A DNA stretch of 64,000 bases from Vibrio sp. 10N.286.49.B1. GTDB lineage: Bacteria > Pseudomonadota > Gammaproteobacteria > Enterobacterales > Vibrionaceae. Shown piece by piece: positions 36,822-57,774 of this stretch; within the stretch, counting starts at the first letter, position 1; the number at the start of each line of letters is the position of its first letter. Under the pieces are notes generated by a model that saw only the letters and a program-made list of their open reading frames with translations, made no database searches and was not told the DNA's origin. Position numbers and translations under genes: made by a program. The stretch is from contig NZ_MCUW01000012.1 of the NCBI RefSeq assembly GCF_002873335.1, positions 1 through 64,000 of the forward strand, read 5' to 3'.

Positions 36822-36857
36822 AAATAACTATTAACTTAAAATAAAAGGTCTAGAAAA

Positions 36858-37940: not shown

Positions 37941-37985
37941 TACCACTCATAATAATGTCTTAATTGGCGTCAACGCCCAAAAGAC

Positions 37986-39969: not shown

Positions 39970-39996
39970 TGAAACAAAATACTATTTATTGTTTCA
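39970..39996. promoter_or_regulatory. Inverted repeat upstream of the PhnDCE-type operon
   Basis: TGAAACAA / TTGTTTCA arms separated by 11 bp, with a third TTGAAACC half-site about 25 bp downstream, in the 319-bp spacer 39774-40092. It is a likely operator for the importer operon. Nothing else was recognised in this spacer. Confidence 0.45.
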
Positions 39997-40092
39997 CTCT
40001 TCTTATCCATGTCATCCTATTGAAACCAAATCACATCATTTGTGTCATGTAACCCCCCTAATTTTGGTACCTAATAAAACAGGGAGTTACTC

Positions 40093-40929: not shown

Positions 40930-40938
40930 GTGACTCTT

Positions 40939-42502: not shown

Positions 42503-42532
42503 TCAAGGTTAGATCATCCCGAATTAGTCTGT

Positions 42533-42562
42533 AGACCTAACCTTGCGTTAGGTCTAATTTTC
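42533..42562. terminator. Hairpin between converging permease and dhaR genes
   Basis: AGACCTAAC / GTTAGGTCT 9-bp perfect stem with a CTTGC loop, then AATTTTC. It probably ends the importer operon. Confidence 0.7.
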
Positions 42563-42576
42563 ATCGCCTAACACCG

Positions 42577-44508
42577 TTAACGTGCCGTGTCTTCAAGCCC
42601 ATATTTTTGAATCTTTCTCCATAATGTCGTGCGACCAATATCCAATGCTTTGGCCATATCTTGCATTTTTCCGTCGTATATTTTCCATGCTTGAATGATG
42701 GCTTTTTTTTCTACGTCTTCCAATGTAAGTATCGATTTTCCATCTCGACTGCCTTCGTCGCTTAAATTGTGCTTAATCTCTTCAGGAATATCACTTAAGG
42801 TAATCAGGTTGCCACTGCGATTGAGAAGGATCCGTTCCATTCGGCTTTTTAATTCAGAATTATTACCCGCCCAGCTGAATTTGACTAACGCGTCCATCAC
42901 GGTTTTTTCAATCGATACCGCCACATTGTGACGCTTTTCATAATTGTGAATAATCACCATTATAAGATGTTCAATATCTTCTTTACGTTTTCTCAACGGC
43001 GGTATTGATAGCTCATTCGAGGACAGTTCATAATACAACTGTCTCCCGAAAGATCGCCTCGCAACATACTCACTAATATCCGACGACGTGCTGGTAATAA
43101 GTTGAAAGCTTACCGGTATTAACCGTGCACTATCACAACGGCTCACTAAACCCGTTTTTAGTAATTTCAGCAATACCGCTTGCAACTCTGGACTTAAATA
43201 TTCGACCTTTTCCAAATATAGCGTTCCGTTATGCGCTAATTCAAACTTAGAAGGCAAACCCTGACCATCTTCGTCATCAAAACCAAGCATTTCTTTGACC
43301 ATGGCTTCGGATGTCAAAGAGCGGCAATTCAGCGTGATAAATGGGCCGTTTTTTGCGTTACTTTCGTTATGAATTGCCATAGCAAGGTCGGACTTCCCTA
43401 CCCCTTCCTCGCCATTGATTAAGATAGGTGCTTTTGACTTAACGGCACGTTTGGCAATCGTTAACACATGCTTCATTCCACGAGACTGGGCATTAATATT
43501 GGCAAATGTATACTTAGCATTTCCCCCTATCTGCTGTTGCGCAAGTTCTCTAATTTTATCGATAGGATGAATGAATAATAGATTTGAGCCATCAACCAAC
43601 GGTTTCAACGTCACAATCGACTCGATAAATTCACCATTTACCTCAACGATGGTTTGTTTACGCCTAATCGTGCTGTGTGTTTCTATGCTTCTTTGGATAT
43701 TTGGTGCAAAACGAACCACCGAAAAGATGTCTTTATCGATAATGTCTAAGGTTTTGAAATTGAGTAATTCCTCGGCTTGGTGATTAGCCATCGTGATCCG
43801 ATTATCTTCATTCCAAGACAATAACCCGTCATCCATACACTCCAATGTAGCATTGTAAGCATTGAGTAGCCGGTTCATTGTCTCTTGCTCATTTTGGACG
43901 TGGATCTGCAGCGCGATCTCTTTCGCACAAGACGCAATAATGACGTGGTTTTCTTTTGTGTACTCGGTGGCTTTTTTGAATAACGAGATGGTTCCTCGTA
44001 AGCGACCAAACGTATCGAATATGGGTGCGGCGGTGGTTGCGTAACAATGCAAATGACGGTTGAAATGCTCTGCCGCAAATACTTCTGTCGGTAAATGTGT
44101 GTTAAGTGTCAAACTGATCGCGTTGGTACCAATTTTCCCTTCTGAGAAAAAACAGCCTTTCTTAAAACCCAACGCACTGACTTCACGCAACAAAGCATCA
44201 TGCCCGACACTAAATAACACGCAGCCGCTATCGTCCGTCACAAATAGTACCAGTTCTTCGCTTCGCAGTAAGTCGTAGGTGTCTTCTATCACTGTGGTGG
44301 CTGAGGTAATAACACGCTCATTTCTCTTAATCAGAGATTTAAGCGTATAGCCAGAAGCAATATGCGGTTTGGACCAGTTGTAAGGGCTCGACTGTTTAGC
44401 GCATCTTTCCCAAGATTCCAGGATCGGCGAAAGCATAAAGTCAGGTGATACCCAGTGATGCTTTTGGAAAAAGTCCCACTTCTTTTTATTGTCTTCAATC
44501 GACAGCAT
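42577..44508 (-). CDS. dhaR: DhaR-type transcriptional activator
   Basis: Activator of dhaKLM in E. coli, where DhaK and DhaL set its activity. The product has ~643 residues (E. coli DhaR 639). Domain order: an N-terminal sensor with ILESWERC, a GAF-like region (~70-190), a PAS region (~215-310), an AAA+ domain with Walker A NGEEGVGKSDLA, and a C-terminal Fis-type HTH (DIGRTTLWRKIQKYG). The loop where GAFTGA should be reads MLGFDDEDGQGLPSKFELA, so it should not contact sigma-54; E. coli DhaR shares this loss. The ATG at 44508 is preferred, but starts up to 44601 (GTG) are possible. It lies 6 kb from dhaK. Confidence 0.88.
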   Translation of the reverse strand: MLSIEDNKKKWDFFQKHHWVSPDFMLSPILESWERCAKQSSPYNWSKPHIASGYTLKSLIKRNERVITSATTVIEDTYDLLRSEELVLFVTDDSGCVLFSVGHDALLREVSALGFKKGCFFSEGKIGTNAISLTLNTHLPTEVFAAEHFNRHLHCYATTAAPIFDTFGRLRGTISLFKKATEYTKENHVIIASCAKEIALQIHVQNEQETMNRLLNAYNATLECMDDGLLSWNEDNRITMANHQAEELLNFKTLDIIDKDIFSVVRFAPNIQRSIETHSTIRRKQTIVEVNGEFIESIVTLKPLVDGSNLLFIHPIDKIRELAQQQIGGNAKYTFANINAQSRGMKHVLTIAKRAVKSKAPILINGEEGVGKSDLAMAIHNESNAKNGPFITLNCRSLTSEAMVKEMLGFDDEDGQGLPSKFELAHNGTLYLEKVEYLSPELQAVLLKLLKTGLVSRCDSARLIPVSFQLITSTSSDISEYVARRSFGRQLYYELSSNELSIPPLRKRKEDIEHLIMVIIHNYEKRHNVAVSIEKTVMDALVKFSWAGNNSELKSRMERILLNRSGNLITLSDIPEEIKHNLSDEGSRDGKSILTLEDVEKKAIIQAWKIYDGKMQDMAKALDIGRTTLWRKIQKYGLEDTAR

Positions 44509-44822
44509 AGATAAACCAATTACGGCGCCGTTGCGGACGCTCAGTGTTGCGGACCGACTATGATAGCGCGACATTTCGAACGCTAGAGTGATCCTATTCA
44601 CACTGACAAACTCAATATTAAACTAATCGATACATCACTGATCTGGGTTGGTGTTTTGATGATTTGTGAAAGAAACATTCAACCAAACACGGTTATCTCA
44701 TCCACCAAAACCATTGTTCACCGCGCACAGAGTTTACGGAAATACATTGAAGATGAGCCGCTGACTAAAAGCAAGCGATGAGCGATAGGACGATCACGGT
44801 TAACGTCGCAAGTTGGACGTCT
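44509..44822. other. Intergenic region upstream of dhaR
   Basis: About 310 bp. The plus strand has a short ORF at roughly 44657-44780 starting MICERNIQPN, but it has no ribosome site and no recognisable product, so it is not called. The dhaR promoter should lie here. Confidence 0.3.
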
Positions 44823-44885
44823 GAAGTTAGAAGTTAGAAGTTAGAAGTTAGAAGTTAGAAGTTAGAAGTTAGAAGTTAGAAGTTA
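44823..44885. repeat. Heptanucleotide tandem repeat (GAAGTTA)9
   Basis: Nine exact head-to-tail copies of GAAGTTA in an intergenic spacer between dhaR and the sulfoquinovose cluster. It is non-coding here and likely to vary in copy number among strains. Confidence 0.95.
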
Positions 44886-44947: not shown

Positions 44948-45091
44948 TTAAATCCACGCCAGAGAAAGCAATAATAGTGGGACAGCAACCAAAGATGCCA
45001 TTTTCATCAATGACAATACTTCACGTAAGACGATTTTAGTTTTTGAATCAATCAGTTGAATTGGTTGTTGTAGCGTTGCGGTGTTATTCAT
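44948..45091 (-). CDS. 47-residue small membrane protein at the edge of the sulfoquinovose cluster
   Basis: The minus frame from the ATG at 45091 encodes MNNTATLQQPIQLIDSKTK, a short amphipathic linker, and a hydrophobic C-terminus (ASLVAVPLLLLSLAWI-stop). That predicts a single-pass membrane peptide with a soluble N-terminus. AAGGG sits 9 bases before the start. Upstream are a CRP-like site and a 23-nt motif that also precedes the aldolase and isomerase genes of the cluster. The motif's distance to the start codon (95 bp) equals that at the aldolase gene. The family is unrecognised; membership of the sulfoquinovose regulon is inferred. Confidence 0.6.
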   Translation of the reverse strand: MNNTATLQQPIQLIDSKTKIVLREVLSLMKMASLVAVPLLLLSLAWI

Positions 45092-45132
45092 GTCAGATGC
45101 CCTTGGTACGTTGAGTAAAATTGACTAATCAA

Positions 45133-45148
45133 TGTGATTTACATCGCA
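45133..45148. promoter_or_regulatory. CRP-like site
   Basis: On the minus strand TGCGA-TGTAAA-TCACA matches TGTGA-N6-TCACA with one mismatch, 42 bp before the small membrane-protein gene. Confidence 0.4.
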
Positions 45149-45185
45149 ATTTTGCACCTTTACGTGACCTTCGTCAACTTAATTT

Positions 45186-45208
45186 TGTCCATAATTGTAC
45201 ATTTTTGT
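45186..45208 (-). promoter_or_regulatory. Candidate CsqR (YihW) operator, copy D
   Basis: Minus strand reads ACAAAAATGTACAATTAT followed by GGACA. It shares the layout ACAnAAAT, CAAnT and GGACA with the sites at 51493 and 52996. Confidence 0.55.
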
Positions 45209-45220
45209 AATTTTAACTAC

Positions 45221-45248
45221 AAAAAAGCCTCGCGATAATGGCGAGGCT
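45221..45248 (-). terminator. Terminator of the sulfoquinovosidase gene
   Basis: AGCCTCGC / GCGAGGCT perfect stem with a 7-nt loop; the minus strand continues into T6. Confidence 0.88.
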
Positions 45249-45274
45249 AGATAGCAAGAATATAAATCTATGAT

Positions 45275-47284
45275 TTAAATAGTTTTTATCTCATCTAACA
45301 ACGTACGATACGGTGAAGATTCTCTATAAAACACGGCAGGTTCACCAATCGGAGCATCAATATCAATCCAACCTCCTGTGAACACCTTCCCTGTCCATGC
45401 ATGAATCCAGTTATCTTCTGGCAAATACACGGTTTTAACCGTTTCGCCTTCGTTGTAGACAGGTGCAACTAGGATATCTCGACCAAAGAGGTACTGGTAC
45501 TTAATCTCATACGTTTCAGCTTCCTGCTCGTAGTGCATAAACAGCGGGCGCTGTACGGGCATACCCTGCTTAGCATTTAAGGCAACAGCCTCTTTAATAT
45601 ACGGCTTCAAATGCTTGAACACTTTCGTCATTTTAGCTAGGTGCGCTAACGTTTCGGCATCGGTATCATATTGATGATTATCACCAGGTCTATTACCTTC
45701 ATGACTGCGCATAATCGGAGTGAATGCGGCCATTTCTGACCAGCGCTGGAACAGTTCTTTCGTTCGCTTCATACCGTGTAACGTGGTATATCCGCCAATA
45801 TCGCTGTGATGAATGCCGTTCCCCATCAATCCTGAAGACAATGCCGCTGGAATCACCGACGCTAAACCGTCGTCAAGAGACCAGTTGACCGATTGATCTC
45901 CGCCCCATAAGGTGTGGCAATACCCTTGAATCCCAGTACCACCAGCTCGCATAAAGAATAAGATATCATCCGTTTTACCCGCTTCTTCAATCGCTTCATG
46001 CTGTACTTTCGCCCAACGATATGGCCATTTATTATGCTCTATTTCTGCACTAACTCCGTTGCTCAATGCACAATCTGTCGGTAAGTATTCTCCAAAATCG
46101 CCCATCCAGCCATCAAGCCCAAAGTCGATCATGTTCGTTTTAATCACACCCTTGTACCATTCGCAGGCATCTGGGTTAGTGAAATCAACCACACCACAGT
46201 AAAACTCACCAAAATCGACGACATATTTAGAACCATCTTGTTGAGTGGCCAAATAACCTTTTTCTTTCGCTTCGTTATATAGAGGAAAGTCTTCGAGCAC
46301 ATACGGGTTTATGTAACCAAGAAAGCGAACGCCCTCTTCTTTCATTTGATGAATTTTACTATCAAGCTCTGGGTATAGTTCTTTGTTCCACTGCCAATCC
46401 CACTGCAAGCGCTTGCCAAAAGAGGTCATCTTAATGCCTTGCCAATCTTGGCACCACGCTCCAGCGACTTCGATACCGGCTTCTTTCGCGGCTGCTACCT
46501 TTTCAATGGTGATCTCGGTACCACCTTGGATCCCAATAATTAAGCCGTTGTATACCCATTCTGGCATTTCTGGTTGTCGGCCAAATACACCCGTAATGTT
46601 TTCCATTAGGTCTGAATAATTATCTTCGCTGTCTAGCAGCAAATAACGAGGGATATCCCAACACTGAAGCTCATGAAAATCATCGTTTGTGAAATTGAAA
46701 TCCGCATAGGCAGTGGTTTCTAAATGGCAAAAGTACTTTTTGTCCGATACGAATGTGGGTTGTGGATAGTTCGTGGTGTAATAATCGCCACCAGCTCTAT
46801 CATGCACATCAGCTTGCCAAGTTACATAACTATTTTTGTTACGACCCACACCCGGTTCACTCGACCATAATGGGAAGTTTTTTCCACGTAGGTTTAAATA
46901 AGTCAGTTGCTCACCACAGCCAAATACTCGCTCATCAGGTGTAGCTGAAACACGAATCCAGAAACGATTATATGAATGATCCACCGCTTCAAATTCAGAC
47001 AGCAAGCGGCCTTCTTCCGTTTCAGACACAATCATGCGAATAACGTCGTTTCCGTCAAACTTAAACGTAATACAAAAACGGTTCTCTCCTGCCTCTGTGA
47101 CGTCAAATTGTCTCAAAGGCAGACGCTCTACAACGTAGTCAGTAATATCAAAGTTCCCACGGTACATATCGAAGTTGCCTTCGCCAGTACCAAGAAATAG
47201 GGCGGGTGTTTGTAGAGAGTGCGTAAATACGGTTCTATTTTTATGTTTTATTGTTAGCGTATTTCCACTGGTAATCAGTTCCAT
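45275..47284 (-). CDS. yihQ: Sulfoquinovosidase (YihQ, GH31)
   Basis: Hydrolyses alpha-sulfoquinovosides such as sulfoquinovosyl glycerol to free sulfoquinovose. The 669 residues follow E. coli YihQ closely: RVFGCGEQLTYLNLRGK, SEPGVGRNKNSYVTWQAD, NGLIIGIQGGTEI, WCQDWQG, the nucleophile Asp in MGDFGEYLPTD (~405), the acid/base Asp in WGGDQSVNW, and MRSHEGNRPGDN. The QGGTE and DWSG/DWQG elements separate YihQ from ordinary alpha-glucosidases. The ATG at 47284 has GGAG 6 bases upstream. There is no signal peptide, so cleavage occurs after import. It follows dctP, with a terminator in between. Confidence 0.93.
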   Translation of the reverse strand: MELITSGNTLTIKHKNRTVFTHSLQTPALFLGTGEGNFDMYRGNFDITDYVVERLPLRQFDVTEAGENRFCITFKFDGNDVIRMIVSETEEGRLLSEFEAVDHSYNRFWIRVSATPDERVFGCGEQLTYLNLRGKNFPLWSSEPGVGRNKNSYVTWQADVHDRAGGDYYTTNYPQPTFVSDKKYFCHLETTAYADFNFTNDDFHELQCWDIPRYLLLDSEDNYSDLMENITGVFGRQPEMPEWVYNGLIIGIQGGTEITIEKVAAAKEAGIEVAGAWCQDWQGIKMTSFGKRLQWDWQWNKELYPELDSKIHQMKEEGVRFLGYINPYVLEDFPLYNEAKEKGYLATQQDGSKYVVDFGEFYCGVVDFTNPDACEWYKGVIKTNMIDFGLDGWMGDFGEYLPTDCALSNGVSAEIEHNKWPYRWAKVQHEAIEEAGKTDDILFFMRAGGTGIQGYCHTLWGGDQSVNWSLDDGLASVIPAALSSGLMGNGIHHSDIGGYTTLHGMKRTKELFQRWSEMAAFTPIMRSHEGNRPGDNHQYDTDAETLAHLAKMTKVFKHLKPYIKEAVALNAKQGMPVQRPLFMHYEQEAETYEIKYQYLFGRDILVAPVYNEGETVKTVYLPEDNWIHAWTGKVFTGGWIDIDAPIGEPAVFYRESSPYRTLLDEIKTI

Positions 47285-47313
47285 CGTTATCTCCAATAAT
47301 TCGACTCTTAGGC

Positions 47314-47340
47314 TAAAAAAAGGCGCACAATTGTGCGCCC
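47314..47340 (-). terminator. Terminator between dctP and yihQ
   Basis: GGCGCACAA / TTGTGCGCC perfect 9-bp palindromic stem followed on the minus strand by T7. It should lower read-through from the abundant binding-protein mRNA into yihQ. Confidence 0.9.
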
Positions 47341-47356
47341 TAACTAAATGGTATGT

Positions 47357-48406
47357 TTATTTGAATTGTAAGTTGTAGTCGGCATCAATCGCGGCTTCAC
47401 ATGTTTTGATCTCATTTTCAAAACGCTGTAACCATTTCTGACCTTCTGGTCCTGTAGATTTTAAGAAGTAATCTTTAACTGGTGCTGAAGCCGTTTTAAA
47501 TGCTTCTTTTTCAGCCGCCGTTGGATTATAGATGGTGCCATCTGCTTTCTTAAACTCTTCGTAAGCTGAGTATTCTTTGTGCTTAGGATACGCTCGTAGG
47601 TATTGATTTTGAGCAGAAATGCCATCAATAACGACTTTCTTCAGGTCATCTGGGAATGAGTTAAATTTGTTGTCGTTAAATACCCATGCCCCACCCATGT
47701 ACGCATGGCCGTCTAAGATCATATAATTCAGGCTTTCATGGAAGCGATTCATGATAATATCAACAATGCCATTTTTAGTGCCATCAACCACGCCTGTCGA
47801 CAAAGCAGTATAGACCTCAGGCCAGGCGATTGGTGTTGGCGAACCACCTAGATCTTTGACAAGTTCTTGTTGAATCTTGGCTGGAACCGTACGAAGTTTT
47901 AGGCCTTTCACATCATCTGGTGTTTTCACTTGCTTCTTGGTCGTTGCAATATTTCGCCATCCACCCGAGTTTGAAACCATCATCAGACGCACATTCGGCG
48001 CTTTTTTCAGTACTTCACTACGTACATCACCAATGAATTTTTCATTGTCATACACACATTCCGCCACACGGTCATTGGGCAATAAGTACGGTAAGTCAAA
48101 TGCCCCTACCGGTTGCCAAAAGTTTGCGAGCTCTGCCGTCGTCGTTTGGAAGTAATCAAACATGCCAGCTTGAACCCCAGCAATACACTCTTTAGCGTTA
48201 CCACATAGTTGACCAGAAGGATAAATATCGACACTGATTTGGCCATTAGAACGCGACTCTACGTAGTTTTTAAACACCAATAGTGATTGGTGGTTGTAAC
48301 CATCAAGATTGGTAACATGAGGGACGGTTAACTTGTAATCTGCCGCATTAACTGCGCCCGCTGTAAACATTGCCGCTGCTGCTAATCCTAGAAGTGTCTT
48401 TTTCAT
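47357..48406 (-). CDS. TRAP transporter substrate-binding protein (DctP family)
   Basis: A 349-residue periplasmic receptor with a signal peptide cut after AVNA-A. It has the DctP pattern: GVQAGMFDYFQTTTAELANF, LRTVPAKIQQELVKDLGG with the ligand-carboxylate Arg, TPIAWPEVYTALSTGVVDGTKNG and WVFNDNKFNSFP. It lies between dctM and yihQ, so the ligand is probably sulfoquinovose or a sulfoquinovoside. TRAP receptors usually bind carboxylates through that Arg; a sulfonate is a plausible variant. Confidence 0.9.
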   Translation of the reverse strand: MKKTLLGLAAAAMFTAGAVNAADYKLTVPHVTNLDGYNHQSLLVFKNYVESRSNGQISVDIYPSGQLCGNAKECIAGVQAGMFDYFQTTTAELANFWQPVGAFDLPYLLPNDRVAECVYDNEKFIGDVRSEVLKKAPNVRLMMVSNSGGWRNIATTKKQVKTPDDVKGLKLRTVPAKIQQELVKDLGGSPTPIAWPEVYTALSTGVVDGTKNGIVDIIMNRFHESLNYMILDGHAYMGGAWVFNDNKFNSFPDDLKKVVIDGISAQNQYLRAYPKHKEYSAYEEFKKADGTIYNPTAAEKEAFKTASAPVKDYFLKSTGPEGQKWLQRFENEIKTCEAAIDADYNLQFK

Positions 48407-48524
48407 AAGATGTTCCTTTCAATTTATCGTTATAATTTAATTTATTTCAATATTTCACATGTAGGGGTATTAATATTTATTGTTTATTAGTTGAGAGCCA
48501 ACACCGATAGCGTTGGCCTCTGGG

Positions 48525-49814
48525 TTACATCACGCCTAATAATTTTGGCAATCCGATGACGAGCTGCGGGAAGAACGAAATCATAAAGATGATTAGGAAC
48601 TCAACCGCTAAGAACGGAATAATCGCCTTTGATATTTTCTGCAATGGCACACCTGATACACCGGATGCCACAAACAACACCAAACCCATTGGCGGTGTCG
48701 CCAATCCAATCGATAGGTTGGCACACATCACAACACCAAAATGCACTGGGTCGATACCCGCATTAATCATGATTGGGCCAATAATTGGAGCAAAAATCAG
48801 AATCGCAGGGCCTGCATCTAAAAACATACCTACGATGAATAAAAAGATGTTGATGATAAAGAACAGCAAGTAAGGATTATCTGTAATACCGTTAATCAAT
48901 TCAGACACATGATTTGAGATACCAGAGAAGCTGATCGCAGAAGCAAATCCACTTGCGGCAGCAACGATAATCAAAATAGCAGCGGCGTTAACAGCGACCT
49001 TCGAGAATAATACGTACGTGGCCTTAATGGTGGTTGCTTTAATAACATACACCGAAATAACAATGGCATACGCCACCGCAACAGCAGCTGCTTCTGTCGG
49101 TGTAAAGATGCCACCGTAGATGCCGCCTAGAATAATAACGGGCGTCAGCAAAGGTAGAATAGCCATTTTTAGACTTTTACTACGCTCTACCTTCGTCGCT
49201 CTCTCCATTGGTTGAACCTCTGGATAATGACGAATCTGAATACGGTTAACGATCATCAAACCAACACAGAAGATAAAGCCTGGAACAATCCCTGATAAGA
49301 ACATTGCTGCCACTGATGTATTCATGACAAAAGCGTAGATCAGCATGATACCTGACGGCGGAATAATCGTACCTAACACGGTAGCGGCGGCGGTCAAAGC
49401 AGCAGAGTAAGCTTTGTCGTAACGGTATTTAGACATCTCAGGGATTAACATATTGCCAATCGCTGAGGTGGCTGCTACCGCTGAGCCCGTTAGTGCACCA
49501 AACAACGTCGCCGCTAGGATGACCACATGCCCTAACCCACCTTTAAGGTGTTGAACACGAGTCTGTGCAAACGAAATAATACGAGGGGTAATGCCGCCAC
49601 TCGACATACATTCGCCTGCCAACATGAAAAACGGCAATGCAAGCAACAAAAAATTATCTAAACCAGAATATAGACGCTGGTATAGCATGTTAATAAATAA
49701 TGTTTGGTCATTCTGAAAAAAAGTAATTACTGGCGCTAACCCAAGTGCAAATAAAACTGGCACACCAACAATTAAGAAAAATAGAAAATAAAGTAAAAAA
49801 ACTGGAGAAATCAT
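48525..49814 (-). CDS. TRAP transporter large permease (DctM)
   Basis: Ion-driven membrane subunit of 429 residues with about 12 hydrophobic segments. DctM motifs include FFMLAGECMSSGGITPRII, GSAVAATSAIGNMLIPEM and GLATPPMGLVLFVASGVSG near the C-terminus. It starts 11 bp after dctQ and precedes dctP by 118 bp. This gives sodium-coupled uptake in place of the MFS importer YihO of E. coli. Confidence 0.93.
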   Translation of the reverse strand: MISPVFLLYFLFFLIVGVPVLFALGLAPVITFFQNDQTLFINMLYQRLYSGLDNFLLLALPFFMLAGECMSSGGITPRIISFAQTRVQHLKGGLGHVVILAATLFGALTGSAVAATSAIGNMLIPEMSKYRYDKAYSAALTAAATVLGTIIPPSGIMLIYAFVMNTSVAAMFLSGIVPGFIFCVGLMIVNRIQIRHYPEVQPMERATKVERSKSLKMAILPLLTPVIILGGIYGGIFTPTEAAAVAVAYAIVISVYVIKATTIKATYVLFSKVAVNAAAILIIVAAASGFASAISFSGISNHVSELINGITDNPYLLFFIINIFLFIVGMFLDAGPAILIFAPIIGPIMINAGIDPVHFGVVMCANLSIGLATPPMGLVLFVASGVSGVPLQKISKAIIPFLAVEFLIIFMISFFPQLVIGLPKLLGVM

Positions 49815-49825
49815 AACAACACCTA

Positions 49826-50365
49826 TTATTCCGCTACTTCAGCTGAAACCAATTTTTCTTGTTCTGGTTTAAAGTGAATAAACTGATGAATTGAAGCAAC
49901 TAATTTCTGGATAGCGAACGAACATGACACTGTCAGCATAACCGGCGGTATCGCGTAAATTACGAACATCGGTATCGGCAGACTATCGGCCATTACCGAC
50001 CCTGTCTTGAAAAACGCATACCCGAAGTAAATCCAGATAGAAAAAAGAACAAGCGCGATAAGGTGCGTTAGCATCATGAATACCTCATAAATTCGGCGCC
50101 CTTTTAACTTATCCGTTACAAATGTCATTGCGATATTCTTGTCTTCTAAATAAATAATCGGAAGACACAAATAAGTCATGTATATCATTAAAAATCTTGA
50201 AGATTCGTCAGTCCAACTCAAAGGAATATTGAGAACATAACGACAAAAAACTTGTAGAAGAACAATAATTGTCATTATCAACAATAAAATTCCAGAAATA
50301 TGAGCGGTTACTTTTGCAAGTGGTGCATTCACTTTGTTTAATGCACTTTCTATAGCTTTAAGCAC
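49826..50365 (-). CDS. TRAP transporter small permease (DctQ)
   Basis: 179 residues with four hydrophobic segments and the DctQ signature VFCRYVLNIPLSWTDESSRFLMIYMTY. The start is a GTG at 50365, with GGTGA upstream. It is the first TRAP gene after the class II aldolase (169 bp upstream). Confidence 0.9.
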   Translation of the reverse strand: MLKAIESALNKVNAPLAKVTAHISGILLLIMTIIVLLQVFCRYVLNIPLSWTDESSRFLMIYMTYLCLPIIYLEDKNIAMTFVTDKLKGRRIYEVFMMLTHLIALVLFSIWIYFGYAFFKTGSVMADSLPIPMFVIYAIPPVMLTVSCSFAIQKLVASIHQFIHFKPEQEKLVSAEVAE

Positions 50366-50534
50366 AAAATCACCATCAAACCAATATTGGTATAGTTATT
50401 AAAACGACATATCGTTTACTGAGTTTCTATTGATAACCTAGTTAATTAATCTAATCCGTGATTTCATTCACAGGCAGACACAACATGTCGTTTTTTGTAG
50501 GGTTTATGTCACATAAGAGACATTTAGAGGTTTG

Positions 50535-51398
50535 TTATGCCGCTTTTCCGTTGGAGCCGAATAAACGAATTTTATGTTGTACAACTTCTTTCATTGAATC
50601 GATACCTGTGTTCATTACATCCGCCAAAATGTAATCGGTTCCACACTCTTTCCAATGCGCTTGAATCCCATCAATGAAACCCTGACGAAGCTCTGTATCA
50701 ACATTAATTTTTGCCACGCCACGCTTAACCGCTTCTAGGACCTGGTCGTCTGGCACACCCGAACCGCCATGCAAAACAATCGGTTTTTTGACGGCTTCTT
50801 TAATTTCAGACAATCGCTCAAATTTTAGCTCTGGGGTCGTTTTGTAAACGCCGTGCGCAGTGCCAATCGACACCGCTAAATAGTCAACACCGGTACGCTC
50901 AGAAAAATCTAACGCTTCTTCTACCGTGGTAATCATCGCGTCTTTTTCGTCAACGGTGATGTCGTCTTCTGTACCACCAATTTTACCAATCTCTCCTTCC
51001 GAACCCAGGCCAAGTGCTGCGGCGACATCGACAACCGCTTTAGTGATTCGAATATTATCTTCAAATGGCAGCGCAGAACCATCAAACATCAACGATTGAA
51101 AATCGCGAGTCGCAGCTTCCATACATTGTTCAAATTTACGGCTGTGGTCTAGATGGATACAAATAGGGACTGAAATTTGGTGGTGCTCTATCAGTGAATC
51201 AATAGCATCACGCAATGGTTTCATGCCCATTTCGTTAATCGCCTTTTGGCCAATTTGAATCATAATCGGTGATTGCTCTTCTTGAGCTGCAAGCAATACC
51301 GCTTTAATCGTTTCAAGGTTATGTGCAGTGAAAGCACCGATAGCATAGCCATTGTTCCATGCTTCATTGATCATCGTTTTACCAGATACGTAAGGCAT
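50535..51398 (-). CDS. Class II (zinc) aldolase, probable 6-deoxy-6-sulfofructose-1-phosphate aldolase
   Basis: 287 residues of the KbaY/GatY/FbaA fold: HLDH (catalytic Asp82-type residue and first Zn His), SEGEIG, GTAHG (second Zn His), VLHGGSG (third Zn His) and INVDTE. The cluster lacks a YihT homologue, the class I Schiff-base aldolase of E. coli sulfoglycolysis. This enzyme therefore probably splits sulfofructose 1-phosphate into DHAP and sulfolactaldehyde. Zinc aldolases with this role have been reported in other sulfoglycolytic bacteria. The ordinary alternative is tagatose- or fructose-bisphosphate aldolase. The fold is certain, the substrate inferred from context. Confidence 0.82.
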   Translation of the reverse strand: MPYVSGKTMINEAWNNGYAIGAFTAHNLETIKAVLLAAQEEQSPIMIQIGQKAINEMGMKPLRDAIDSLIEHHQISVPICIHLDHSRKFEQCMEAATRDFQSLMFDGSALPFEDNIRITKAVVDVAAALGLGSEGEIGKIGGTEDDITVDEKDAMITTVEEALDFSERTGVDYLAVSIGTAHGVYKTTPELKFERLSEIKEAVKKPIVLHGGSGVPDDQVLEAVKRGVAKINVDTELRQGFIDGIQAHWKECGTDYILADVMNTGIDSMKEVVQHKIRLFGSNGKAA

Positions 51399-51492
51399 TT
51401 TAAGTCGTCCTATTGAATTAACTTTTCGTTCGTCGTGGTGATAAATTATCAGTCTAAAGCGCTCAATTCTGTTAGATATGTATCACTTTCCA

Positions 51493-51515
51493 ACACAAAT
51501 GTACAAATTAGGACA
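51493..51515 (+). promoter_or_regulatory. Candidate CsqR (YihW) operator, copy C
   Basis: ACACAAATGTACAAATTA followed by GGACA, 95 bp upstream of the aldolase start codon. It agrees with the copy at 45186 at most positions. Further TGTACAAA and ACAAAAGTGA words nearby (51550-51585) suggest extra half-sites. Confidence 0.55.
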
Positions 51516-51584
51516 AAAGTGAGTGTTGAGACACAATTTAAATGTCAATATGTACAAAATCTCGTAATCTACAAAAGTGAACAT

Positions 51585-51616
51585 AAAAAAAAGATGACAA
51601 CCAAAGGTTGTCATCT
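51585..51616 (-). terminator. Terminator of yihS
   Basis: AGATGACAACC / GGTTGTCATCT 11-bp perfect stem with an AAA loop; the minus strand continues into T8. It separates the upstream yihU-yihS unit from the aldolase-TRAP-yihQ unit. Confidence 0.92.
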
Positions 51617-51661
51617 TCATGAAATCACCAAGTGTAAACGTTAACAAACGTTTATGAGAGG

Positions 51662-52912
51662 TTAGCGCATACTTTCGTCTAAGCGACCTTCTGCTAGTGC
51701 AGGCGCTAATCCAGGCGTTAACGGCAGCCTAGGGATAACTAAGCAGTGCATCAAATGATAGATGTCTTGTTTACCGTCCCAGACTTTACTTGTGCCAGCT
51801 TGGTTGTTTACATCGAGCTCCTGCCACCAAGAACACCCCTCATAATCAATAAGATAAGTACGACAGTAATCCCACCAAGTTTGATAGAATTCTTCGTATT
51901 TTTTATCGCCAGTGACCGTGAAAAGCGCATAAGCGGTACCAATAGCTTCGACAGGAGCCCAACGAATACGCTCACGTACCACGGGTTTACCATCCCAATC
52001 CACTGAATAGACAAAACCTGGGGCCCCATCCACGGCCCACGCGTCGCGCACGGTTGCATCAAACAGCCCTTTCGCATCTTCCAGTAACCACTCTGGTGTC
52101 TCGGCTCCAATTTCAAGCAACGTTGCTCGAAGGTGGCAGATTAGACGGCCCCATTCAATCCAATGGCCCGGTGTACCGCCGTAAGCACGAAAATGACTTG
52201 CAGGCGTATCTTTGTTGTAGTCCGGTAGTGGATTCCAACTAGAGTCGAAATGTTCATTAACACGATAACTCAGATTTTTCGCCGTTTTGTGAATCATGAA
52301 TTCAGTGATATGGAGCGCTCGGTCTAGCCACTTTTTATCTTTAGTCACGTCATATACAATAAGAAATGCCTCAACCGCATGCATGCTGGCATTACCGCCA
52401 CGGTAGTCTTCTGTCTCAGAGAACGCTTCATCCCAAGATTCAAGTACCATCTGTTCTTCTTCGTTCCAAAAGTACTTTTCAATCACAGCAATTGACTCGT
52501 CTAAAAGAGCGCGAGCACGTGGGTGACCCGTCGTCACGGCACTCGCCGCCCCTAATAATACGAAGCAGTGTTGATAGCCCTGTTTCGAGGCATCAACGAT
52601 ACCATTGCCTTCGTTATCAATGGTTGCATACCAACCACCATGAGTATCGTCTTTAAGAGGCCCTTCAAGTGCCGAGATCCCATGTTCCACTAGATCAAAC
52701 GCCCCTGGTCTTCCCATTAATGCGGCTAGAGAATAACAATGCAACATACGAGCAGTGATCCACAAACGTGTTCCCATTTCTTCACGAACGTTGCCATTAT
52801 TACCAATCCAACCAAACCCATTAGGGACGATAGCATTTCTTCCAAATTCAAAAATTCGGTCAGTTTCTGTATCCAACCAAGCATTATGGGATCGGGTATT
52901 AATCCATTTCAT
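51662..52912 (-). CDS. yihS: Sulfoquinovose isomerase (YihS)
   Basis: Converts sulfoquinovose to 6-deoxy-6-sulfofructose. This 416-residue member of the AGE isomerase family matches E. coli YihS along its length: [20 protein letters not shown] at the start, [57 protein letters not shown] and [18 protein letters not shown]. The catalytic His residues of GHWIEW and DIYHLMH are kept. A GAGG site precedes the ATG. Confidence 0.95.
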
Positions 52913-52995
52913 AGGGTATTTCCTCGTTATTTTTATTGTTACTGACGTTACCAGTCAGCAGCGTTGAATTATGTTAATTGACCATCATTTTTGTG

Positions 52996-53018
52996 ACACA
53001 AATAATCAAATATGGACA
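52996..53018 (+). promoter_or_regulatory. Candidate CsqR (YihW) operator, copy B
   Basis: ACACAAATAATCAAATAT followed by GGACA, 84 bp upstream of yihS and overlapping the 3' end of the TSUP gene. It has the same 18-nt spacing before GGACA as copies C and D. Confidence 0.5.
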
Positions 53019-53746
53019 TTTTTGATCACTAGCACACAACCAATGACAAGAAGTAGGCCATGCACGATGTGGTGGTAGTTGATTTTGTATTTTTGTAGAA
53101 AGTGGTAGCCCACCATGCCGCCAGTCATACCGACAAGAAAAGCAGGCATCGCGGATAAAACCAGCTCTTGTACGTCAGGCGTAATCAAGCCCTCATTCCA
53201 AAAGCTCGCAATCGCCCCTATCATTTGCAACATGAAAAAGAACACCAGCGTCGACTTCGCCTGATCGGCTGTCCAAGGTTGCATTGATGTGTAAGCGATC
53301 ACCGGCGGACCAGCCTCACCAACACTCGCCCCTAATACGCCAGAAGCAAAACCAGTCCCTACGGTCACCGGTACCGAGGTCTTTGAGAACGCAGGCTTAG
53401 CACTTCTCATCGAATGAATACTCGATAAGATCAATACCACCCCCATCGTAATCAAGATGTATTGTGACGGCAGACTCGCCAACAGCTTTGCTCCAACAAA
53501 TGATGCCGGTAATGATCCTGCAACAAGAATTAATCCCACTTTGTATTGGATGGAATGACGCATTTTCCAAACGATCGGAAACGTCACTAACCAACCAAAT
53601 ATTCCAGCGATGGGGACCGCCATTTTTGCATCGATAACCAGCGAAAGTAATGGTACAGAAACGAGCGCTAACCCAAACCCGGTCAAGCCTTGTGTAAAGC
53701 CCCCTAATGCAATGATTAAGGAGACGAGAATAACGGTGATATCCAT
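53006..53746 (-). CDS. TauE/SafE (TSUP) family membrane exporter
   Basis: A 246-residue membrane protein with about eight hydrophobic segments. The TSUP start (ALGGFTQGLTGFGLALVSVPLL) is repeated in weaker form in the second half (ASGVLGASVGEAGPPVIAY). TSUP members include sulfite and organosulfonate exporters. Placed between yihS and the mutarotase, it probably exports the C3 sulfonate end product (2,3-dihydroxypropane sulfonate). The role is inferred. Confidence 0.82.
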   Translation of the reverse strand: MDITVILVSLIIALGGFTQGLTGFGLALVSVPLLSLVIDAKMAVPIAGIFGWLVTFPIVWKMRHSIQYKVGLILVAGSLPASFVGAKLLASLPSQYILITMGVVLILSSIHSMRSAKPAFSKTSVPVTVGTGFASGVLGASVGEAGPPVIAYTSMQPWTADQAKSTLVFFFMLQMIGAIASFWNEGLITPDVQELVLSAMPAFLVGMTGGMVGYHFLQKYKINYHHIVHGLLLVIGCVLVIKNVHI

Positions 53747-53800
53747 AATTAAATCCTAAATAAGGGCGAGAACTCACCCTTAAGTGATAACTGACAGTTG

Positions 53801-54841
53801 TTATTTTACAGAGAAGCGGTGAATGGTTTTTTCTTCGAACACTTCACCAGGATTCAAGCGTACACTTGGAAAGTGCGGCTGATTTGGGCTGTCGGGGAAA
53901 TGTTGCGTTTCCAAACATAGCCCCTCCCGTGCCTTATAATGTCGACCATGACGGCCTAACCATGGTTTGTTTGATAACTTAAAACCGTTATAAAACTGAA
54001 CAGCAGGCTGGGTGCTTAACACCGTCATCATCCGCCCACTATGCGCGTCATATAGTTCCGCAGCGTAATGGTACTCACCTTCTCGTTTACGCCCATTCAG
54101 GACAAAATTGTGATCGTATTCACCCGACCCAATTTGAGTGGCGGTAGTAAAATCGAGCCCCGTGTCTTTTACTGACTTGATTTCGCCAGTAGGAATCATC
54201 TCCTCAGTCGTTGGCGTGTATAGATTGGCATGAAGTACAAGTTCATGCTCATCTACAGCGCCCGAATCAAGGCCACCCAAGTTGTAGTAGCTGTGATTGA
54301 CTAAATTGACAACGGTCGGTTTGTCGGTCATTGCTTTGAAGTTGTAATGGAGTTGATTGCCTTCATCCAAACCCACCGAGTGAGTGACATCCATCGTCCC
54401 GCCATAGCCAGACTCACCATCCACAGAAACTCGACTGAGATGCAGATAAATCGCTTCAGGTTGTTCTTCAATCGAAAAATCCCAAACGTACTTATCAAAG
54501 CCTTTCGTCCCGCCATGTAAATGTTGGCGAGTTGGCAGTTCATTGGTCTCCAATTGAAAGCTTTCACCATCGAGTTCATAGCGACCATCTTTAATACGGT
54601 TGGCATAACGCCCAGCTACAGCACCAAAGAACGGGTGCCCTTTTAGGTATTGTTCTAAGTTGTCATAACCTAAAACCACGTTCGCCTTCGCGCCCTCTCG
54701 GTCGGGTGCTTCAATTGAGGTCACGATGCAGCCGTAGTTGGTGACTTGCACTTTCAAACCGTGTCGATTTTCTAGGGTAAATAGTTTGACTGGCAATGCT
54801 TGGCCTTCGACTTGACCCCAATTCTCTACCGTAATTTTCAC
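53801..54841 (-). CDS. Aldose 1-epimerase, probable sulfoquinovose mutarotase
   Basis: 346 residues of the GalM fold: VTNYGCIVTSIEAPDREG, GRYANRIKDGRYELDG, RQHLHGG with a catalytic His, VNLVNHSYYNLGG with the second His, and the Glu of LCLETQHFPDSPN. The start is a GTG at 54841 with GAGG upstream, 20 bp after yihU. E. coli carries the mutarotase YihR in the same context, interconverting sulfoquinovose anomers; YihR is shorter (~308 residues). This GalM-like copy probably has the same job. Confidence 0.88.
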   Translation of the reverse strand: MKITVENWGQVEGQALPVKLFTLENRHGLKVQVTNYGCIVTSIEAPDREGAKANVVLGYDNLEQYLKGHPFFGAVAGRYANRIKDGRYELDGESFQLETNELPTRQHLHGGTKGFDKYVWDFSIEEQPEAIYLHLSRVSVDGESGYGGTMDVTHSVGLDEGNQLHYNFKAMTDKPTVVNLVNHSYYNLGGLDSGAVDEHELVLHANLYTPTTEEMIPTGEIKSVKDTGLDFTTATQIGSGEYDHNFVLNGRKREGEYHYAAELYDAHSGRMMTVLSTQPAVQFYNGFKLSNKPWLGRHGRHYKAREGLCLETQHFPDSPNQPHFPSVRLNPGEVFEEKTIHRFSVK

Positions 54842-54861
54842 GTTATGGCCTCTAATATTTA

Positions 54862-55755
54862 TTATTGGATTTTTGCTTCAAGGCCGGAAGTAACACGAAG
54901 CTGTTCGAATATAGACGTCCAGTCTTGGCGTCCGCGCCCAGCAGCTCGAGCGATACTATACAACTCGCGCGATGCCGCACCGCAAGGCATAGGTACATTC
55001 ACTTGATTCGCTAGATCAAGGGCAATCCCTAAATCTTTATGCGCGAGGTCAACCATAAATGCAGAAGATAAGTCGCCAGCAAGTACCTTACCAGGCCATG
55101 TTGTTGTGAAGTGTCCTTTACCCGCAGGGGTGCCGCTCATCACTTTCATCGCAGCATCAAACTCAAGTCCAATCGCTTCTGACAGCGTTGCCGCTTCAGC
55201 AGATAATGCATTGAGCGCAATACTCATGTAGTTATTAATGATCTTGACCCTAATCCCTTTCCCTGGACCACCAGCGTCAATAGTTTCAGAGCCCATGCAA
55301 TCAAATAGAGGCTGTGCTTTAGCAATTTGTTTCGCGGTTCCACCAGCCAGAATTAACAATTCGCCTTTGATTGCATGATCAGATGTACGCCCCACTGGCG
55401 CTTCCATCATTGAATAACCTTCATTCGACATATCTTTAATCAAGGCATCAGTTTCAAATGGATGAATCGTCGACATATCAATAAGTAGAGCTTGCGTATC
55501 TAGGCGCTCTGTCACACCTCCATCACCAAAAAGGACCTCTCTTACTAACGCCCCATTTGGTAGCATGGTAATAACAAATTCGGCATCGGTTGCCGCTTCG
55601 GCTGGTGACGACGCTGCGGTTGCCCCCAATTCAACCATACGGTTAACTGCGTCTTTATTCACGTCAAACACACGCAATGAGTGCCCACCTTTAATGAGAT
55701 TTGCAGCCATAGGGCTACCCATTTGACCAAGACCGATAAATCCTACTGTTGCCAT
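54862..55755 (-). CDS. yihU: 3-Sulfolactaldehyde reductase (YihU)
   Basis: Reduces 3-sulfolactaldehyde to 2,3-dihydroxypropane sulfonate with NADH. A 297-residue beta-hydroxyacid dehydrogenase, near-identical in plan to E. coli YihU: Rossmann [67 protein letters not shown] with the catalytic Lys, and [15 protein letters not shown]. It is first in the minus-strand operon and divergent from yihV, so redox balance is closed by excreting the alcohol. Confidence 0.94.
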
Positions 55756-55856
55756 GAAAAATCCTTAACTGTTGTTGGTTATAGTTGTTGAATTGCTATT
55801 TACTATAATCATTCGAGAGTTTATAACCACAACACTTGTCACATTTTGTTGTTTTA

Positions 55857-55917
55857 TGTCCATTTATTGTCTTTTTGTGAGAATACTCTCATCCAAACTG
55901 ATTTTGCGCTTTATAAT
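55857..55917. promoter_or_regulatory. yihU-yihV control region: operator copy A, CRP-like site and -10 element
   Basis: On the minus strand 55857-55878 reads ACAAAAAGACAATAAAT then GGACA, a one-base-shorter version of the motif at 45186, 51493 and 52996. Overlapping it, TGTGA-GAATAC-TCTCA at 55876-55891 is a CRP-like site with one mismatch. TATAAT at 55912-55917 is a good -10 element for yihV. That puts the CRP site near -40, a class II position. The rest of the 345-bp spacer shows nothing else clear. Confidence 0.55.
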
Positions 55918-56100
55918 AGTGTCCATGAGCTGACTTTAAGCTCGTCGCATTCGAGATAGCGTTAAGGGTTACTTTGCTATGGTTGATGGCGCGATGAATG
56001 GTAGTGTTAAAGCCTAACGAGCTAAAAACTAAAGCATGCAAAGAAAACGCGCGAAGCGGCACTCCTTATTTTCCAATGATGTAAAAACAATAAGAGATAA

Positions 56101-56994
56101 ATGATGGCGATAGCTTGTGTTGGTATTACAGTATTAGACCGAGTCCAATTGGTTTCTCAGCTTCCAAACTCTGGTGGGAAGTATGTTGCACACAATTATT
56201 TTGAAGTGGGTGGTGGCCCAGCAGCGACCGCATCGGTAGCCGTTGCTAAACTTGGCCATAGTGTTGATTTTATTGGTCGCGTGGGTTGTGATGGTGTGGC
56301 AGATACCATGCTATCTGAGTTAGCAGGATACGGCGTTGGTGTTGACCGTACTATAAAAATTCCCGGCGCTTCATCGGCATTCTCCGCCGTGATCGTGGAC
56401 AACGAGGGGGAACGAATGATCATCAACTACCAAGACGAGTCTTTATCGAAAGATATTACGCCGTTAAAAAATGTTGATTTTTCGACATATTCCACAATTC
56501 TTACAGATGTTCGTTGGTTGGAAGGGGCAACATATGCTTTAGAACAAGCAAAAAAATTCGGGATACCTTCGGTTCTCGATGCAGACCTAACGCCCGAACC
56601 CATTGATGTTCTTGTTAAATTAGCCGATCACGTTGCATTTAGCGAACCAGGACTGGCAAAATTCACAGGAACAAACGATCCTATAGAAGGCCTCAAACTC
56701 GCTCAAAAAAAGACACCCGGCAGAGTTTATGTTACAGTCGGTTCAAAAGGATGTTACTGGCTTGAAAACGGCGAACTCGCTCATCAAGTAGGCCTCAAAG
56801 TAGACGTCGTCGACACTACAGGTGCTGGAGATGTTTTTCACGGAGCCCTTGCTGTCGCCGTGGCAGAGCAAATGGAAACGTGTCAATCTATTATCTTTTC
56901 TAATACTGTCGCAGCCCTCAAGTGCCAAAAACTTGGTGGTCGTGAAGGTATCCCGAACCGAAAAGACGTAGACATTAATATTGTAAACAAATAA
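56101..56994 (+). CDS. yihV: 6-Deoxy-6-sulfofructose kinase (YihV)
   Basis: Phosphorylates sulfofructose at C1 with ATP. This 297-residue PfkB-family kinase keeps E. coli YihV features: ACVGITVLDRV, GGKYVAHNYFEVGGGPAATASVAVAKLG, VDFIGRVG, ADVRW-type TDVRWLEGA, AFSEPGLAKFTG and the C-terminal catalytic motif DTTGAGDVFHGALAVA with the base Asp. It is co-transcribed with the regulator 18 bp downstream. The ATG at 56104 is an equally possible start. Confidence 0.94.
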   Translation: MMAIACVGITVLDRVQLVSQLPNSGGKYVAHNYFEVGGGPAATASVAVAKLGHSVDFIGRVGCDGVADTMLSELAGYGVGVDRTIKIPGASSAFSAVIVDNEGERMIINYQDESLSKDITPLKNVDFSTYSTILTDVRWLEGATYALEQAKKFGIPSVLDADLTPEPIDVLVKLADHVAFSEPGLAKFTGTNDPIEGLKLAQKKTPGRVYVTVGSKGCYWLENGELAHQVGLKVDVVDTTGAGDVFHGALAVAVAEQMETCQSIIFSNTVAALKCQKLGGREGIPNRKDVDINIVNK

Positions 56995-57012
56995 TAAAAA
57001 AGAAGGGTTATC

Positions 57013-57774
57013 GTGACTAATCCAAGACAAGATAAGTTATTGCAGCTAGTTGACGACAAAGGCTATTACACTGTTGAAGAACTGGCGGAAATGTTAGACG
57101 TCTCGACGCAAACCATTCGTCGTGATATTAAAAAGCTCAGTGAAGATCGCTTGGTTATTCGCCATCATGGTGGTGCCAGTTCTCCATCAACGAAAACGAA
57201 CCTAGATTATGAGGTTCGTAAAGTGTCAGAGACCGATCAAAAAAATGCCATTGCAAAACGAATTGCGGACATTATTCCTGATAACTCAACCGTTTTTATT
57301 ACCATAGGTACAACCGCTGAGGTTATTGCTAGCCATCTTCTTAAAAAGAATAATCTGCAGATCATTACCAATAGTTTACGTGTGGCCAATGTGTTACACG
57401 GTAACAAAACATTTGATGTGTTGATACCAAGTGGCAAGGTAAAAGCATTCAATGGCGGTATTGTTGGAACAGAAGCAATGGATTTTATTTCTAACTTTAG
57501 ATTCGACTACCTCATCACAAGCGCCGCCTCCATTGATGTCGATGGAACGTTACTCGAATATGATCTCAGCGAGACACTTATTACACAAACCGTCATGAAA
57601 TCAGCACGACACGTAATGGTTGCATTGGACTCGACTAAGTTTATACCAAAGGGTTCTATTGAATTAGGTCCGATCAGCAAAGCAACTTACCTGTTCACAG
57701 ACTCTCCCCTTAGCGATGAATTGAATACTATTGTAGGCAAGGGAAATACAACGATCGAGATTTGCACCACGTAA
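57013..57774 (+). CDS. yihW: DeoR-family regulator (YihW/CsqR type)
   Basis: 253-residue transcription regulator with the DeoR HTH (YYTVEELAEMLDVSTQTIRRDIKKL, residues ~17-41) and a DeoR C-terminal sugar-phosphate sensor domain (FITIGTTAEVI, KVKAFNGGIVG, and a D-Y/L-Y-S segment near DGTLLEYD). The start is GTG at 57013 with AAGGG upstream. It follows yihV. In E. coli CsqR represses the cluster until sulfoquinovose binds, and the recurrent GGACA-containing motif is its likely target here. Confidence 0.92.
   Translation: MTNPRQDKLLQLVDDKGYYTVEELAEMLDVSTQTIRRDIKKLSEDRLVIRHHGGASSPSTKTNLDYEVRKVSETDQKNAIAKRIADIIPDNSTVFITIGTTAEVIASHLLKKNNLQIITNSLRVANVLHGNKTFDVLIPSGKVKAFNGGIVGTEAMDFISNFRFDYLITSAASIDVDGTLLEYDLSETLITQTVMKSARHVMVALDSTKFIPKGSIELGPISKATYLFTDSPLSDELNTIVGKGNTTIEICTT

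Follow-up and report, generated by a model that had tools for sequence, protein, structure and literature searches.

We analysed a stretch of 64,000 nucleotides from Vibrio sp. 10N.286.49.B1 (contig NZ_MCUW01000012.1, positions 1 to 64,000; hereafter the window) and found a complete gene cluster for the use of sulfoquinovose (SQ) at 45275-57774, in which every named gene is an intact open frame. The cluster encodes the sulfoquinovosidase YihQ, a tripartite ATP-independent periplasmic (TRAP) transporter composed of DctP, DctM and DctQ, a class II aldolase, the isomerase YihS, a TauE-like protein, a mutarotase, the reductase YihU, the kinase YihV and the regulator CsqR. With good confidence we read the locus as a hybrid form of Embden-Meyerhof-like sulfoglycolysis (sulfo-EMP) most likely using sulfoquinovosyl glycerol (SQGro), the head group of plant and algal sulfolipid, and the pathway itself is almost certainly of this hybrid type. 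The enzyme pathway is already known, and since the enzyme hybrid is settled, the window locus adds one more carrier; what merits further work is uptake and its connection with glycerol.

An earlier note on this DNA had placed the start of the cluster at 44948. This position belongs to a frame of 47 residues (44948-45091) without support as a gene, and the cluster begins at 45275. The TauE/SafE gene at 53006-53746 had been left out of the gene list, and the neighbours to the left, dhaR, gldA and dhaKLM (32387-44601), had been overlooked.

Sulfoglycolytic enzymes and the class II aldolase

The same note had recognised YihQ, YihS, YihV, YihU and YihW, and this held, the five intact frames being 50-72% identical to the proteins of Escherichia coli K-12. 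YihQ (45275-47296, reverse strand) is 56% identical and reaches 994.5 bits with the NCBIfam sulfoquinovosidase model of family GH31, the curated cut-off being 553 (NCBIfam scores are given below as bits with the curated cut-off). YihS (51662-52912, reverse strand; 72% identity) matches the structure 7ag4, 'Sulfoquinovose isomerase', with E 3.6e-217, and scores 507 bits with the D-mannose isomerase model, under its cut-off of 600. YihU (54862-55755, reverse strand; 71%) passes PRK15461 with 505.9 bits (cut-off 348), and YihV (56101-56994, forward strand; 55%) matches the sulfofructose kinase 7ag6 with E 9e-97, the next best match being at 9e-53. CsqR/YihW (57013-57774, forward strand; 50%) carries the DeoR-family domains PF00455 and PF08220. 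The YihS-type isomerase, YihV-type kinase and YihU-type reductase place the locus among the hybrid sulfo-EMP/EMP2 clusters. The positions that we take to be substrate contacts or catalytic residues in the E. coli enzymes are kept in the alignment in seven of seven cases in YihQ (QQRWY and the catalytic Asp positions), four of four in YihU (R123, K171, N174 and S178), seven of seven in YihV (four of them the GDVF stretch) and eight of nine in YihS, where E. coli R238 aligns to H240. Both the family score and the motif residues thus identify YihQ as a GH31 sulfoquinovosidase. The mutarotase that had been noted (53801-54841, reverse strand) is present and belongs to the GalM/Aldose_epim family, but it is not a close YihR: E. 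coli YihR gave no BLAST match to it at 1e-5, and the two align with 74 of 282 residues identical.

As the earlier note had proposed, a class II aldolase stands in for YihT, and the YihT homologue that it had considered as a counter-finding elsewhere in the genome was not found. The own genome holds a single PF01791 match, whose alignment with E. coli YihT covers no more than 13 residues (E 7.8), which is chance level. None of 296 Vibrionaceae genomes matched YihT at E 1e-40 in a search without positive control, so that the absence of YihT rests on the PF01791 match and the YihT alignment in the own genome.

The aldolase gene (50535-51398, reverse strand) is predicted to encode an SqiA-type enzyme acting on sulfofructose 1-phosphate (SFP). 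Its closest solved structures are 8q58 (E 1e-121) and 8q57 (E 1e-117), with 8q58 scoring slightly higher (408 versus 395 bits) and the next match at 3e-63; the entries 8q5a and 8q59 go with 8q58 and 8q57, respectively. Ninety consecutive residues of the 8q57 chain recur unchanged in P0215, a protein labelled Yersinia aldovae, to which the window aldolase is 64% identical. We take 8q57 to 8q5a to be the class II SFP aldolases of Yersinia aldovae and Hafnia paralvei described by Sharma 2023 (JBC 299:105338). That paper is cited by title in PMC12890257 and PMC10991401. The window aldolase is also 58-60% identical to the aldolases of four Bacillota loci, compared with 38% to GatY and KbaY. Three motifs, which P0215 shares, are all found in it: GQK[AV]I, H[LI]DHSR and NVDTELR, present in 111, 119 and 120 of the 120 relatives listed, respectively. 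They are missing from GatY, KbaY and the three own-genome paralogues aligned (three of four, L005 being left out, and the alignment of L003 lacking the part where the first motif would lie). The three motifs may touch the sulfonate.

Could the gene encode an ordinary fructose- or tagatose-bisphosphate aldolase that sits here by chance? The best NCBIfam model is indeed the class II fructose-bisphosphate aldolase (323 bits, under the cut-off of 423), and the sole cut-off passed is that of the broad ketose-bisphosphate aldolase subfamily cbbA (284 of 216). We regard this as very improbable, given the identities and motifs just described, the four other PF01116 matches that the genome holds, the presence of YihS, YihU and YihV beside the aldolase in 19 of 19 gammaproteobacterial loci found, and a Vibrio relative that works in a YihT-less cluster (PMC13372026). 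Even less probable is a cluster for a related sulfosugar such as sulfofucose. Stereochemistry cannot be read from sequence, and the R238 to H240 change in YihS would fit a different sugar; against this, the identity of YihQ, YihS, YihU and YihV to the E. coli enzymes is 55-72%, the other presumed active-site residues are kept, and V. mediterranei, which has the same cluster (locus L007), grows on SQ (PMC13372026).

A scan of named genomes returned 24 aldolase loci, of which 19 carry YihW, YihV, YihU, YihS, the aldolase, DctQ and DctM together. Seventeen of these belong to Vibrionaceae, the family in which the earlier note had wanted the gene order searched; the others are Alginatibacterium and Reinekea. 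A mutarotase is present in 18 of the 19 and DctP in 17 of the 19 stretches. The remaining five loci comprise four from Bacillota and one with a 35% relative. Two of the Bacillota neighbourhoods were scanned (L024 and L027, the isomerase position of L027 as well as L025 and L028 being left out): the aldolase of L024 is accompanied by a fucose-isomerase-like protein, a phosphofructokinase and an aldehyde dehydrogenase, the sulfo-EMP2 set, and that of L027 by a phosphofructokinase and an aldehyde dehydrogenase of sulfo-EMP2 type. Among 296 sampled Vibrionaceae genomes, 27 carry the aldolase, the own genome included.

Hybrid sulfo-EMP/EMP2 clusters have been reported earlier (PMC9594981, PMC10991401, PMC12890257), and Vibrionaceae were named among the families with EMP2 genes beside csqR (PMC10991401). 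V. mediterranei AbY-1905 grows on SQ with stoichiometric release of dihydroxypropane sulfonate (DHPS), and its SQ-induced proteins come from a ten-gene cluster, AC0VPI_00105-00150 (PMC13372026, ISME J, 17 June 2026). As in the window, YihS/YihV/YihU-type enzymes are combined with an SqiA homologue in place of YihT, and a mutant of the isomerase (tag 00125) lost SQ degradation. Of 6854 Vibrio genomes, the same study assigned the hybrid pathway to 81; it also reports that V. ulleungensis has both sulfo-SDO and sulfo-EMP and that Vibrio are active SQ users in coastal water (PMC13372026). The suspicion of the earlier note that the combination might be undescribed is therefore wrong for the enzymes; for a TRAP importer of SQ or its glycoside, no description turned up among those matching papers that were looked into.

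The TRAP transporter and its linkage to yihQ

Binding protein, large permease and small permease are encoded together by DctP (47357-48406; TRAP_S1, 175.1 bits, cut-off 50), DctM (48525-49814; TIGR00786, 388.1 bits, cut-off 268) and DctQ (49826-50365; PF04290, 87.5 bits, cut-off 28), all on the reverse strand. DctP stays below the narrower TIGR00787 cut-off (163.3 of 175). Its predicted structure (pLDDT 91) has the TRAP binding-protein fold according to a fold search, which cannot tell the ligand. No close YihO was found in the own genome, three matches being only 27-28% identical, and the replacement of a major facilitator superfamily importer by a TRAP system, as first proposed, fits these findings. 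The carboxylate-binding arginine of SiaP, at the position that we assume for it, aligns to DctP R172, which is invariant in 34 aligned sequences. Cysteines 68, 74, 117 and 336 (precursor numbering) are likewise invariant in 34 relatives, which suggests two disulfides.

From its genomic linkage we are highly confident that the transporter imports SQ or SQGro. DctP is present in all 27 Vibrionaceae genomes that carry the aldolase. YihQ is encoded in 23 of them, with 24 copies in total, and beside each of the 24 lies a DctP of 76-100% identity at a distance of 63-383 bases. This pair stays together even where it is separated from the rest of the cluster: in nine genomes (G433, G666, G583, G536, G576, G481, G586, G546 and G528) it lies 8.5-30.5 kb from the aldolase. 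The position of the permease genes was seen for six of the nine (G433, G481, G536, G546, G576 and G586), and in these they adjoin the aldolase and not DctP. Genome G390 has two cluster copies (L070 and L071; aldolases 71-72% identical), both with DctP adjoining yihQ; here yihQ lies 7.7 and 8.6 kb from an aldolase, and DctM and DctQ adjoin DctP. The yihQ matches in G509, G632 and G390 contain one internal TAA, which may lie close to the gene end or truly interrupt the frame.

The four carriers without yihQ (G419, G487, G512 and G527) have a second type of DctP, at 69-70% identity, as their sole one. This type thus occurs alone in four of the 27 carriers, none with yihQ, and alongside the yihQ-linked type in six (G433, G521, G536, G541, G666 and G390, in the last far away and at 66%). 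At E 1e-100, a search for DctM gave a single match in 10 of 11 genomes and, in G010, an additional one at 51%. As the genomes with two DctP proteins (G002, G003, G007, G009 and G011) have one DctM match each, a single permease pair seems to serve both binding proteins. In a FastTree phylogeny the second type groups with P0104 (support 0.998). The yihQ-linked group is weak, with a support of 0.825 together with L047/L048 and of 0.495 once G390 and P0057 are included, and the DctP type alone was dropped as a marker of yihQ, as L047/L048 break the rule. If the assignment is true, marine genomes could be screened for SQGro users simply by looking for a DctP gene that adjoins yihQ.

In two genomes, G509 and G632, a second full DctQMP set precedes genes for an aldo-keto reductase and a dioxygenase of the TauD family, which resemble a sulfo-SDO/ASDO set, so that the same transporter type accompanies an unrelated SQ pathway. 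The aldo-keto reductase and dioxygenase genes come directly after DctP at L006:13035-16524 and L056:5884-9373. Both loci are V. splendidus-type clusters without yihQ, combining sulfo-EMP and a likely sulfo-SDO/ASDO set in one locus. Across Gammaproteobacteria, the window-type DctP was found only in the own genome among 369 sampled, too sparse a sample to judge its spread. Relatives at 66-73% identity occur in Pasteurellaceae and related genomes (P0075, P0076, P0081 and P0092). No Pasteurellaceae-type name appeared for the aldolase among the named rows of the 120 relatives listed, and the four genomes may use another sulfosugar pathway.

Glycerol genes and the proposed route

To the left of the sulfosugar cluster the window encodes a set of glycerol and dihydroxyacetone genes, with dhaR being the gene that adjoins yihQ. 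DhaR, a sigma-54 activator of dihydroxyacetone kinase operons (42577-44601, reverse strand), reaches 836 bits with PRK11388 (cut-off 551), and the glycerol dehydrogenase GldA (36858-37940, forward strand) 555.5 bits with the PRK09423 subfamily (cut-off 336). The kinase subunits DhaK (35449-36507; TIGR02363, 468.7 bits, cut-off 406) and DhaL (34799-35455; TIGR02365, 255.8 bits, cut-off 138) are followed by DhaM, the phosphoryl donor of the kinase, fused to HPr and enzyme I of the phosphotransferase system (32387-34795; TIGR02364, 124.8 bits, cut-off 98; TIGR01417, 472 bits, cut-off 342), all three on the reverse strand. The DhaM domain thus passes its cut-off, with the full-length DhaM model as the exception (451 of 520 bits).

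At least one of gldA, an ATP-type dihydroxyacetone kinase gene, dhaKLM genes or dhaR lies near yihQ, at an identity of at least 56%, in 16 of the 23 yihQ genomes, and gldA plus a kinase in 12 of the 23 (raw counts among related genomes, over 34 kb in the own genome and about 9 kb on each side of yihQ in the others). None of the four yihQ-less carriers has glycerol genes within the roughly 20 kb covered on each side of the aldolase. In all nine genomes with a separate DctP-yihQ pair, an ATP-type kinase and gldA directly follow the pair. The kinase of L049 has Dak1 and Dak2 domains and, with 523.6 bits, stays under the glycerone kinase cut-off of 575; the glycerol dehydrogenase of L049 scores 553.8 bits (cut-off 336). 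The copies of the other genomes are 82-100% identical to these. Hence two kinase types occur near yihQ, one dependent on ATP and one on phosphoenolpyruvate. The separate DctP-yihQ-dhaK-gldA unit is preceded by two genes, one for a regulator of the LysR type and one for a membrane protein of the Imp-YgjV type (L049:4418-5977 and the equivalent places in L050, L052 and L054), and the LysR protein is possibly its own regulator of SQGro uptake.

The earlier note had treated SQ and its glycoside as equal candidates for the DctP ligand, and the gene neighbourhood points more towards the glycerol glycoside. YihQ has no visible signal peptide (judged by eye), so the glycoside that it splits has to be taken into the cell. 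In all genomes examined yihQ is accompanied by this DctP, making DctP the natural carrier of the glycoside, and the glycerol genes near yihQ indicate that the other half of the glycoside is glycerol. We therefore consider it likely that SQGro is the preferred ligand of the yihQ-linked DctP type, and we slightly favour a role of the window dha genes in the use of its glycerol. DctP would bind SQGro in the periplasm, DctQM would carry it inward and cytoplasmic YihQ would release SQ and glycerol. After mutarotation and isomerisation by YihS, SQ would receive a phosphate from YihV, and the class II metal aldolase would split the product into dihydroxyacetone phosphate (DHAP) and sulfolactaldehyde. 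YihU would reduce sulfolactaldehyde to DHPS, which would exit the cell, perhaps through the TauE/SafE-like membrane protein (53006-53746, reverse strand; PF01925, 88 bits, cut-off 33), a candidate exporter. Glycerol would be oxidised by GldA to dihydroxyacetone and converted to DHAP by DhaKLM, so that each SQGro would yield two DHAP and the NADH from GldA could be consumed by YihU. In this route we infer the TRAP substrate, the glycerol branch, the exporter and the operator discussed below. If true, a TRAP transporter dedicated to SQGro and linked to the use of glycerol would account for the gain of carbon from the sugar half as well as the glycerol half of the sulfolipid head.

A simpler explanation is that the transporter imports free SQ, that DctP and yihQ are adjacent because they form one operon, and that the dha genes serve general use of glycerol or dihydroxyacetone. 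Several observations fit this: V. mediterranei grows on free SQ and its ten-gene cluster is induced under these conditions (PMC13372026), all four yihQ-less carriers keep a DctP, 7 of the 23 yihQ genomes have no glycerol gene nearby, and phn genes split gldA from dhaR in the window. Against it stand the nine genomes in which DctP keeps to yihQ at 8.5-30.5 kb from the aldolase, with an ATP-type dihydroxyacetone kinase and gldA directly behind, and we consider this explanation rather unlikely. The preference for SQGro by the yihQ-linked type may be one part of a larger system: we propose, tentatively and with some doubt, that the yihQ-linked DctP delivers SQGro and the second type free SQ or another sulfosugar to a shared DctQM, with glycerol oxidation and sulfolactaldehyde reduction coupled through NADH. 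If so, a redox-balanced fermentation of SQGro would be possible.

A search of the own genome for an HpfG-like DHPS dehydratase returned only matches of 28% and 25%, and we therefore treat DHPS as the final product in this strain. In other loci, HpfG and its activating enzyme adjoin the cluster (L014:638-4243, L015:1744-5416 and L016:1767-5424), and further such sites are L020:17899-20858, L022:1961-5573 and L011:1-2653. The L014 copy passes the model for (2S)-3-sulfopropanediol dehydratase with 1597.7 bits (cut-off 1000), the other copies being assigned by 83-87% identity. HpfG beside such clusters in Vibrio has been reported already (PMC9594981, PMC11489063).

Known systems, regulation and neighbouring genes

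A close counterpart is the locus L007 of V. mediterranei, from a strain other than AbY-1905, which has ten genes in the order YihW, YihV, YihU, mutarotase, YihS, aldolase, DctQ, DctM, DctP and YihQ. It shares the genes of the window in window order, including dhaR, except for TauE; the window has TauE inside the cluster and gldA and dhaKLM further left. YihS is the fifth gene of L007, and tag 00125 is the fifth of AC0VPI_00105-00150 if the tags step by five and are read from YihW. As the ten-gene order fits the tags, the TRAP proteins are very probably among the SQ-induced proteins of AbY-1905, even though the words 'trap' and 'transporter' are absent from the main text of that paper (PMC13372026).

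With the yih cassette of E. coli the window shares homologues of YihQ, YihS, YihU, YihV and CsqR as well as the divergent orientation of yihU and yihV, whereas YihT, YihR, YihO and YihP have no close counterpart and are replaced by a class II aldolase, a GalM-type mutarotase, DctPQM and TauE. Hafnia has SqvD where the window has YihS (PMC10991401). The sulfo-EMP2 systems of Bacillota (SqvD, SqiK and SqiA) have the SqiA-type aldolase in common with the window, but the isomerase and the kinase of the window are of sulfo-EMP type.

The glycerol branch has a precedent in Faecalicatena, where candidate genes for an SQ-induced glycerol dehydrogenase and dihydroxyacetone kinase lie in the SQ cluster and the authors suggest that the glycerol of SQ-glycerol may pass through both enzymes (PMC11659671). 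That anaerobic gut-type bacterium differs in its transketolase/transaldolase pathway, its NAD+-dependent sulfoquinovosidase and its predicted ABC importer (PMC11659671). TRAP transporters are used for other organosulfonates, namely for taurine in Taurinivorans muris (PMC10507020) and for isethionate with the binding protein IseP (8te9), both being C2 sulfonates and not sulfosugars; the taurine system was accordingly set aside as an SQ importer. In five further papers the word 'trap' refers to mass-spectrometer or chromatography traps (PMC11659671, PMC6278857, PMC11968277, PMC12421959) or to a trapped complex (PMC12133307), and in PMC12608037 neither class II nor TRAP, Vibrio or SqiA was matched.

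Between yihU and yihV we identified a box of 44 bases (55837-55880, reverse strand), a candidate operator of CsqR that could be aligned in the window and 19 loci and has diverged in L006, L012, L018 and L021 (the matrix was built from the same sequences that were later scored). Part of it resembles what we take to be a CRP half-site, and CRP may bind there as well. Extra copies are found upstream of TauE, facing a glycyl radical enzyme gene (L014, L015, L016 and L022), between the mutarotase gene and yihS (L011 and L017) and between yihQ and dhaR (L013 and L017); the window has one copy only and none at the last position. No box above threshold was found near the separate DctP-yihQ units of L039-L043 (L044 and L045 lay outside the scan), which leaves a common regulation of that unit by CsqR unsupported.

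The phn genes of the window (40093-42502), which encode PhnD-, PhnC- and PhnE-like proteins of an ABC transporter, lie between gldA and dhaR. The PhnE-like gene scores 269.7 bits (cut-off 217), and no PhnE match was found in the L007 stretch of V. mediterranei. Finally, nine tandem copies of the 7-base unit GAAGTTA are located between yihQ and dhaR at 44823-44885.

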